A DNA stretch of 64,000 bases from an uncultured Pelagibacteraceae bacterium (GTDB lineage Bacteria; Pseudomonadota; Alphaproteobacteria; Pelagibacterales; Pelagibacteraceae): assembly GCA_902617025.1 (NCBI GenBank), contig CACMVB010000004.1, forward strand, positions 26,537 through 90,536. The letters are read 5' to 3'. Positions 15,090 to 53,197 of this stretch are shown piece after piece. A model generated the notes under the pieces. It saw nothing but the letters and a program-made list of their open reading frames with translations. It ran no database searches and was not told where the DNA came from. Position 1 is the stretch's first letter. Every line of letters starts with the position of its first letter. A program made the position numbers and the translations under genes.

Positions 15090-16382
15090 TTATGCAGCCA
15101 ATGCTTGCTTGATATCTGCAACAATATCGTCTGGATGTTCTATGCCAATTGATAATCTGACATAACCTGGAGTGACACCAGCAGCTAACATTTCCTTTTC
15201 TGTAAGCTGACTATGCGTTGTTGTTGCCGGGTGAATTGCCAAACTTCTAGCATCACCAATATTCGCTACGTGGTAAAGCATTTTTAAGCTATCAATAAAT
15301 TTAGCTCCTGCTTCTTTCGTTCCTAGATCCATACCTATTAAAGATCCATAACCACCTTGCATATATTTTTTTGCTCTATCTCTAATTTCACCTTGATAAT
15401 TAGTTGGATAGATAACCTTTTTAACTTTTTTGTGACCATCTAAGAAATTCACAACTTTCTCTGCATTACTGCAATGTTGTTTCATTCTTAAAGCTACAGT
15501 TTCCAAACCTTGAATGATTTGGAAAGCATTGAATGGACTTAAAGGAGCACCTAAGTCTCTCAATAAAACCACTCTCGCTCGGATGACAAATGGAATATTA
15601 GCACCAGTTAATTGTGGAACTGCGTCTGCCCAAACTGCACCATGATAACTTTGATCTGGTTCATTTAATAGAGGTTGTCTTTTTCTATCTTTAATCCAAT
15701 CAAAATTTCCTCCATCTACAATTATTCCTCCAATTGAAGTACCGTGACCACCAATATATTTTGTCAAAGAGTGCATTACAATTGCAGCTCCATGAGCTAA
15801 AGGTTTACATATTACCGGTGAAGCTGTGTTATCGATAATTAAAGGAATACCTTTTTTTCTACCGATATCAGAAACTTCTTTAATTGGAAAAACACGAAGA
15901 TATGGATTTGGAAGAGTCTCACCATAATAAGCTCTTGTCTTCTCATCAGTTACTTTTTCAAAGTTTTTTGGATCCGCAGGATCTGCAAATCTAACTTCAA
16001 TACCTTGTTGCCTTAAAGTATTTTTGAATAAGTTAACTGTACCTCCGTATAAATCAGTAGAAGCAACAATGTTATCTCCAGCTTGTGCTAAGTTTTGAAT
16101 ACACATTGCTGACGCTGCTTGGCCTGATCCCACTGCACATGCCGCTACACCGCCTTCAAGCGCTGCAACTCTTTTTTCTAGCACATCTACAGTTGGGTTC
16201 ATGATACGTGTGTAAATATTACCAAATTCTTTTAGACCAAATAAATTTGCAGCATGTTCTGCATTTTTAAATTGGTAAGAAGTTGTTTGATAAATAGGAA
16301 CTGCTACAGCTGTTGTAGTAGGATCAGCTCTGTAATCACTACCATGTAAGCCAATAGTTTCTGGATGTTTAAAATCAGCCAT
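15090..16382 (-). CDS. metY: O-acetylhomoserine aminocarboxypropyltransferase / O-succinylhomoserine sulfhydrylase (PLP)
   Basis: PETIGLHGSDYRADPTTTAVAVPIYQTTSYQFK; HSLTKYIGGHGTSIGG PLP lysine region. Confidence 0.93.
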   Translation of the reverse strand: MADFKHPETIGLHGSDYRADPTTTAVAVPIYQTTSYQFKNAEHAANLFGLKEFGNIYTRIMNPTVDVLEKRVAALEGGVAACAVGSGQAASAMCIQNLAQAGDNIVASTDLYGGTVNLFKNTLRQQGIEVRFADPADPKNFEKVTDEKTRAYYGETLPNPYLRVFPIKEVSDIGRKKGIPLIIDNTASPVICKPLAHGAAIVMHSLTKYIGGHGTSIGGIIVDGGNFDWIKDRKRQPLLNEPDQSYHGAVWADAVPQLTGANIPFVIRARVVLLRDLGAPLSPFNAFQIIQGLETVALRMKQHCSNAEKVVNFLDGHKKVKKVIYPTNYQGEIRDRAKKYMQGGYGSLIGMDLGTKEAGAKFIDSLKMLYHVANIGDARSLAIHPATTTHSQLTEKEMLAAGVTPGYVRLSIGIEHPDDIVADIKQALAA

Positions 16383-16422
16383 TGATTTTCCCCCTTACTG
16401 TTTCTCTTATCGTTTCGTTCAT
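16375..16422 (-). CDS. candidate leader micro-ORF 2 (MNETIRETVRGKING*), overlaps metY start codon
   Basis: ATG overlaps stop of micro-ORF 1 (ATGA), SD GGAG 5 nt upstream; ends 8 nt into metY (ATGGCTGA). Confidence 0.35.
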   Translation of the reverse strand: MNETIRETVRGKING

Positions 16423-16479
16423 TTTTTCTCCGTCTTTCTGGAGAAGAATGAACGAAGCATAATTCTGTTCATCTTCTCC
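16414..16479 (-). other. three-arm alternative hairpin region (A:B or B:C) over two SD-AUG modules
   Basis: A=GGAGAAGATGAAC (16479-16467), B=TTCGTTCATTCTTCTCC (16456-16440), C=GGAGAAAAAATGAACGAA (16431-16414); B is complementary to both A and C. Confidence 0.7.
16419..16472 (-). CDS. candidate leader micro-ORF 1 (MNRIMLRSFFSRKTEKK*) directly behind SAM-V
   Basis: AAGGAG-AAG-ATG just 3' of SAM-V pseudoknot; 17 codons, then TGA overlapping next ATG. Confidence 0.4.
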   Translation of the reverse strand: MNRIMLRSFFSRKTEKK

Positions 16480-16532
16480 TTTTTAGTACTTCGGCATTTG
16501 CCAGGTGTACAATATGGTTCAAATACCCGGTT
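16474..16532 (-). ncRNA. SAM-V riboswitch aptamer
   Basis: GGUAUUUG/CAAAUGCC stem, GUACUAAAAAGGAG 3' segment overlapping the SD; directly downstream of SAM-II in a metY leader. Confidence 0.75.
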
Positions 16533-16549
16533 TAATTTCAGATTGTTCC

Positions 16550-16578
16550 AAAAAAAAACCACCGGCTAAAGCGGTGGT
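16550..16578 (-). terminator. intrinsic terminator following SAM-II aptamer
   Basis: ACCACCG-CUUUAGC-CGGUGGU then a run of U. Confidence 0.9.
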
Positions 16579-16589
16579 CTAAGTGACTA

Positions 16590-16643
16590 ATGCGCTTTAG
16601 CAGGATTTATAAAGCGCCCGCAAGTTGCCTTAACTCAGCGCTA
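16590..16643 (-). ncRNA. SAM-II riboswitch aptamer
   Basis: AGCGCUGAGUUAAGGCAACUUGCGGGCGCUUUAUAAAUCCUGCUAAAG matches recalled SAM-II consensus; P1 AGCGCU/GGCGCU. Confidence 0.85.
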
Positions 16644-16648
16644 AAAGA

Positions 16649-16678
16649 TTTATAACAAGAATTTCAGGATTTTGTCAA
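16649..16678 (-). promoter_or_regulatory. sigma70-type promoter of metY leader
   Basis: TTGACA-18 nt-TATAAA upstream of SAM-II. Confidence 0.85.
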
Positions 16679-53029: not shown

Positions 53030-53197
53030 TTAGAGGAAAGTCCTCTGCGTAACGGGAGAGACCATTTAGGCGCCGAAGGAGCAACCACCCCGGAAACTCT
53101 CAGGCAAAAGGACCGTTGCCGTAATAACTCTGGAAAGCAGGCGAAAGCCTCACCGAAGGATTAAATCTCTCAGGTACATAGACAGATGGGGTTAGAT
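53030..53197 (+). ncRNA. tandem glycine riboswitch upstream of gcvT
   Basis: Two aptamers: cgggagagacc...gccgaaggagcaa...ccggaaactctcaggcaaaaggaccg and actctggaaagcaggcgaaagcctcaccgaaggattaaatctctcaggtacatagacagatgggg. Confidence 0.95.

Follow-up and report, generated by a model that had tools for sequence, protein, structure and literature searches.

The leader between the SAM-V riboswitch and metY in an uncultured member of the Pelagibacteraceae, from a different genus than HTCC1062, contains three RNA strands (A, B and C) that probably form a translational expression platform of SAM-V, acting as a relay built of RNA only. Strand A of this relay would be the GGAG found at the SAM-V 3' end, acting as an anti-anti-SD rather than as the SD of the controlled gene, and would compete with the downstream SD strand C for the single anti-SD strand B. 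Without SAM, A would be free to pair with B, leaving C open (ON); with SAM bound, the aptamer would hold the start of A in P2a, so that B would pair with C and bury its SD and start codon (OFF). An open C would then allow translation of a short ORF, micro-ORF2, and raise metY expression by translational coupling, and the SAM-II-like element with its terminator further upstream would add transcriptional control. The computed support consists of the complementarity of the strands, the covariation of both helices, their near-equal energies, the effect of blocking the GG of A, and the recurrence of the design before three kinds of gene. P2a has been reported to form on SAM binding, to be stabilised by SAM and to include the start of the SD (PMC6061858), and we infer that bound SAM rules out A:B in the complete leader; P2a comprises only 2 bp and therefore may not outcompete A:B. 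The sign of the relay (OFF with SAM) fits what is described for HTCC1062, where both bhmT and metY are induced at sulfur limitation (PMC5069961).

The elements of the leader are given below, with coordinates in the window, i.e. the whole stretch of 64,000 nucleotides that was analysed.

16556..16651, minus strand: SAM-II-like aptamer with intrinsic terminator (Rfam SAM_alpha profile and terminator scan)
16651-16577, minus strand: the SAM-II-like aptamer itself (SAM_alpha, 21.4 bits, gathering score 36)
16580-16556, minus strand: intrinsic terminator after the SAM-II-like aptamer (terminator scan)
16473..16537, minus strand: SAM-V aptamer (RF01826, 68.6 bits, gathering score 41)
16467..16479, minus strand: arm A, GGAGAAGATGAAC, the proposed anti-anti-SD strand, with SD and AUG of micro-ORF1 (sequence; A:B fold, z -4.9; covariation)
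16440..16456, minus strand: arm B, TTCGTTCATTCTTCTCC, the shared anti-SD strand (sequence; folds; comparative tests)
16414..16431, minus strand: arm C, GGAGAAAAAATGAACGAA, with SD and AUG of micro-ORF2, where the controlled initiation is proposed (sequence; B:C fold, z -5.2; covariation)
ATG 16472 to TGA 16419, minus strand: micro-ORF1, MNRIMLRSFFSRKTEKK (sequence)
ATG 16422 to TGA 16375, minus strand: micro-ORF2, MNETIRETVRGKING (sequence)
15090..16382, minus strand: metY, O-acetylhomoserine aminocarboxypropyltransferase, 430 aa (TIGR01326, 575 bits, above the cut-off; PF01053)

The three arms, both SD-AUG modules and all coordinates of the first-pass annotation match the sequence. The SAM-V match spans the full length of the model, and arm A takes its GGAG from the 3' end of SAM-V, within the aptamer model. 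The SD in arm A does overlap the P2a (pseudoknot) region as had been claimed; in P2a, GG at 16479-16478 is proposed to pair with CC at 16517-16516, the exact CC:GG assignment being putative. The SAM-II-like match stays below its cut-off, yet stands in the correct order with its terminator, and GCTAAAGCG in its 3' strand forms a perfect complement to CGCTTTAGC of that terminator, which would offer a ready antiterminator/terminator choice. Matches to the MIR and glutamine-riboswitch families of Rfam were below their cut-offs and were taken as chance. Elsewhere in the window, at 53043-53125 on the plus strand, a glycine riboswitch aptamer was found (62 bits, cut-off 32).

The two micro-ORFs and metY are arranged in a chain of overlaps: the stop of micro-ORF1 overlaps the start of micro-ORF2 (ATGA), and the stop of micro-ORF2 overlaps the start of metY (ATGGCTGA at 16382). 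Measured from the aptamer GGAG, the micro-ORF1 start lies at most 3 nt away, while the start in C follows at ~54 nt and that of metY at ~94 nt. In typical SAM-V riboswitches the controlled start is found within ~10 nt of the aptamer (PMC2704228), a distance exceeded by both the C and the metY start; this difference concerns the expression platform, not the aptamer.

Folding was computed on the A/B/C leader, leaving out the aptamer and its pseudoknot. A:B alone reached -17.3 kcal/mol (z -4.9) and B:C alone -18.3 kcal/mol (z -5.2), with 0/200 shuffles as good in either case. A:B is the 13-bp helix with one bulge of the first-pass annotation, extended by a 3-bp tip; the proposed B:C pairing was likewise recovered, its helix counting 15 bp instead of 16 and holding an internal loop of 1x2. 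The central claim, that B can pair with A or with C and not with both, was borne out. Since the minimum free energy structure of the window leader is already B:C, the modelled ON fraction without SAM is only ~12% there: the probability that the SD of C is open was 0.12 in the free leader and 1.7e-6 with the GG of A blocked. A role of A:B or B:C as a transcription terminator was rejected, as neither is followed by a U tract and the terminator scan finds the SAM-II terminator only.

The relay is not confined to metY. In total, 77 distinct SAR11 leaders of this design were collected, preceding metY, a bhmT-like methyltransferase gene or a MetE-like gene. Their common layout leads from the GGAG of A to the CTCC of B and, over a spacer of ~5-9 nt, to the GGAG of C and an ATG; leaders without CTCC or CTCT in B were filtered out, L058, L073 and L081 being three with a point change. 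The arms vary among groups and complementarity is kept inside each leader, a recurrence with changed yet complementary arms that appears far beyond chance. In SAR11, SAM-V often appears not to block the RBS of the gene itself; its copy of the SD and the real site seem to compete for B.

Because a MAFFT alignment of all 25 mixed leaders put the arms out of register, covariation was assessed by pair counts in two more restricted sets and by a swap test, in which arms were exchanged between sequence groups over the 77 leaders with the GGAG/CTCC cores removed. A paired with its own B at a mean of -9.7 kcal/mol, compared to -4.85 with the B of other groups; the own partner was better in 75/77 leaders, and 0/2000 group derangements were as good. 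The exclusion of the core keeps this test from being circular despite the CTCC-based collection. In one set of Pelagibacter leaders 97.9% of A:B was paired and 11 cells were double-changed; for B:C the window's set gave 89.7%, seven pairs being changed on both sides. Either covariation score was reached by 0/500 shuffles, in counts and nulls that ignore kinship among leaders that are related. In other groups the B:C hairpins extend past the SD core. In homologous leaders B covaries with A and with C, the outcome on which the first-pass annotation had staked its claim beforehand.

Removal of A by the ligand was modelled by blocking the GG of A, with the aptamer outside the fold. Under this in silico block the probability of an open SD in C falls by a median factor of 10^4.4, compared to 10^0.7 in shuffles that keep the three cores, and 0/462 shuffles reach the real median, against a null that carries no tree model. 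The two folds are nearly isoenergetic (median |ddG| 0.88 compared to 2.32 kcal/mol in shuffles), and from leader to leader the energies of A:B and B:C are correlated (r 0.75). Blocking the first 24 nt, as a model of a ribosome sitting on A, likewise closes C, so that A occupied by anything except B means OFF.

The last result bears on an alternative in which ribosomes, rather than A:B, do the switching: without SAM they would initiate at A, translate micro-ORF1 through B, unwind B:C and reinitiate at C, with A:B of secondary importance. We consider this unlikely. A riboswitch-controlled leader with termination-reinitiation is known from ppe2 of M. tuberculosis (PMC11260477), and micro-ORF1 ends on the C start in 23 of the 40 distinct metY leaders, in 14/15 bhmT leaders and 2/2 MetE-like leaders of the window's genus, and in the four HTCC1062-type bhmT leaders. 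In the fold model, however, a ribosome on A frees B for C and closes it, and A:B has covariation of its own, which such a ribosome mechanism does not require. In the metY class just 3 nt separate the SD of micro-ORF1 from its AUG, and the remaining 17/40 metY leaders have early stops, frameshifts or fusions (a stop after 2-4 codons in five, in-frame fusion to micro-ORF2 in six, reading past C in six). Moreover, in two Pelagibacter bhmT groups that keep A:B:C, 11/14 leaders lack a start codon at up to 12 nt from the GGAG of A. The first-pass annotation had proposed that ligand state and ribosome loading on micro-ORF1 could decide whether A or C is open; the competition between A and C holds up, and loading of micro-ORF1 as the deciding step finds no support in the form proposed. 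A conserved first uORF, as expected of a uORF-coupled leader of the ppe2 type, is not what we found, micro-ORF1 being startless or broken in many relay leaders; it is therefore not a general part of the device, and the step of a ribosome on micro-ORF1 would not be needed for the relay. For the same reasons (starts absent, frames broken) micro-ORF1 was rejected as a conserved leader peptide in general. In L067, L074, L056 and L094 both micro-ORFs are fused in frame into a single ORF of 31-32 codons, which still ends on the metY start.

In the window's genus, micro-ORF1 may nevertheless add something. One reading, which overlaps with the RNA-only relay and which we regard as possible but not probable, keeps the RNA relay as the core and has translation of micro-ORF1 add a boost or ribosome sensing in this genus only. 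There, all 15 bhmT leaders keep micro-ORF1 open through B, among them one whose loop is 3 nt longer. On the other hand, the metY class shows loop indels of 1 nt, and the conserved residues of micro-ORF1 are largely encoded by the helix arms, so that their conservation may be structural.

The relay as proposed reaches metY through micro-ORF2, which in the window has 15 codons and is started by C. In relatives the distance from the micro-ORF2 start to the metY start is 37, 40 or 43 nt, all in one frame, or 47 nt in L103, which uses a different stop-start overlap (TAATG). The micro-ORF2 stop overlaps the metY start at every distance seen, which makes it likely that micro-ORF2 couples initiation at C to metY. 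An own SD of metY, AAGGGGG, is located just upstream of its ATG in a weakly structured region with a weak hairpin around the start; control through C consequently depends on this putative coupling.

The history of the leader was approached by comparing gene arrangements. Among metY relatives and leader matches in the window's genus there are two architectures: a direct one, with the metY start within ~7 nt of SAM-V and no A/B/C (e.g. L091, L100, L150-L154), and a derived one, with A/B/C behind SAM-V. In part of the derived genomes a gene for a bhmT-like homocysteine S-methyltransferase (PF02574) lies between A/B/C and micro-ORF2-metY, and in L147 and L148 the same leader type is followed by a MetE-like gene (weak NCBIfam match). 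In the metY tree, for which most relay leaders were unlabelled automatically and classes were assigned by eye from the leader sequences, the direct leaders branch at the base of the genus, and the derived ones form one clade in which those with bhmT and those without lie intermixed (SH-aLRT 97). Tree and architectures together suggest that the metY leader of the window probably derives from a SAM-V-A/B/C-bhmT-ORF2-metY operon by loss of bhmT. The distant MetE-like protein that replaces bhmT in L147 and L148 suggests that genes are exchanged behind a regulatory leader that stays in place.

In another explanation the hairpins are not a switch: they could merely stabilise or space the leader, or be debris of the loss of bhmT upstream of metY. 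The related genomes that hold bhmT between SAM-V and micro-ORF2-metY do make the metY leader look like the result of gene turnover, and orphan SAM-V elements with A:B hairpins and no C at all exist. We consider this explanation very improbable, as covariation is seen in both helices, their energies match and intact bhmT and MetE-like genes are preceded by the design as well. The orphans just mentioned (L264 1445-1563; also L024, L267, L269 and L275) consist of SAM-V and an A:B hairpin with neither a C arm nor a gene behind; what comes next is a HAD-like ORF of the opposite strand, with its 3' end 4 nt past B. In several Pelagibacter genomes this hairpin is kept by wobble and compensatory changes, and the element could be either a relic or a SAM-responsive small RNA.

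Outside the window's genus, a pattern search of 399 Pelagibacter genomes recovered the layout in 21, and in none with the reversed pattern as control. These leaders mostly precede bhmT, and orthologous bhmT genes elsewhere have direct leaders. The bhmT leader of Ca. Pelagibacter ubique HTCC1062 (L020), recognised by coordinates and genes matching Table 1 of PMC2704228, is a relay leader as well, with the SAM-V GGAG 73 nt before the bhmT ATG. Direct, relay and long leaders are mixed in the bhmT tree, which needs at least eight changes (with L210, a relay leader whose micro-ORF1 is fused to bhmT, counted there as direct); the cassette has therefore been gained, lost or exchanged several times. 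A search for viral copies found none. A broader and rather doubtful proposal is that SAM-V leaders have more than once acquired or exchanged a relay cassette with a duplicate of the SD, turning the SD of the aptamer into a decoy, and that in the window's genus this decoy is also a working RBS, so that one arm would sense both SAM and free ribosomes before metY translation.

Two further types of leader were observed. In other genera, L223, L224, L225 and L218 have 130-142 nt between SAM-V and bhmT and an extra inner hairpin, with a distant CTCC arm in L225 able to pair with the SAM-V GGAG; these could be a longer version of the relay. In bhmT-type leaders (e.g. L183, L186, L265, L141, L254) a CCCUC-like run recurs across groups in the A:B loop, and in some Pelagibacter leaders the loop run complements the middle of A (AAGGG/CCCUU, AAGAG/CUCUU). 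This run may be a second, earlier competitor strand.

Switching between anti-SD and anti-anti-SD strands is an established principle: in riboswitches such as E. coli btuB a three-strand competition decides whether the SD is sequestered. The window leader, in which folds and pair counts give two exclusive helices, one of them sequestering an SD, shares this three-strand competition over the SD with the btuB type. It differs in that its anti-anti-SD is a near copy of the SD and start of the controlled ORF, and lies inside a pseudoknot aptamer that elsewhere acts directly. Direct-occlusion SAM-V (RF01826) has the same aptamer, ligand, expected OFF-with-SAM logic and P2a region with GGAG; there, this GGAG is the gene's own SD near the start codon (PMC2704228, PMC6061858), whereas in the relay leaders the controlled start lies ~54-77 nt further and has its own GGAG, that of the aptamer being the competing strand. 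The B12 switch of M. tuberculosis ppe2 (PMC11260477) resembles the window leader in its order of riboswitch, short ORF with overlapping stop, and gene, and by analogy the step from micro-ORF2 to metY may work in the same way; the aptamer is a different one, and the first micro-ORF of the relay is dispensable in related leaders.

Selective SAM binding has been shown for the metY and bhmT SAM-V of HTCC1062 (PMC6061858), and SAM-V is described as acting directly on the RBS in the literature consulted (PMC2704228, PMC6061858, PMC9481103). The bhmT tandem of HTCC1062 resembles the window leader in having SAM-II (a SAM-II-like element in the window) with a terminator followed by SAM-V, and also A/B/C. 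The accessible parts of the papers on it (PMC11508383, PMC5069961, PMC9481103) discuss SAM-II, the linker and SAM-V, with no mention in those parts of the region from SAM-V to the bhmT start. The first-pass annotation had given a SAM-II/SAM-V tandem before metY as already reported; the tandem is, and the gene named in those parts is bhmT of HTCC1062. Leaving aside the founding paper of Poiata et al. 2009 (RNA 15:2046), no SAM-V relay was described in the literature searched. Three-strand anti-SD switching is known; what is provisionally new is that SAM-V employs it by way of a duplicated SD.

SAM-V is regarded as a standard case of direct ribosome-site occlusion, and the bhmT leader of HTCC1062 is among its model leaders. 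If the relay is true, control of bhmT would lie with a three-strand relay, as yet unexamined, that follows downstream of the published aptamer. Orthologous genes with direct leaders in some genomes and relay leaders in others would represent a natural experiment on the change of an expression platform by duplication of the RBS, set in SAR11, one of the most abundant bacterial groups of the ocean.
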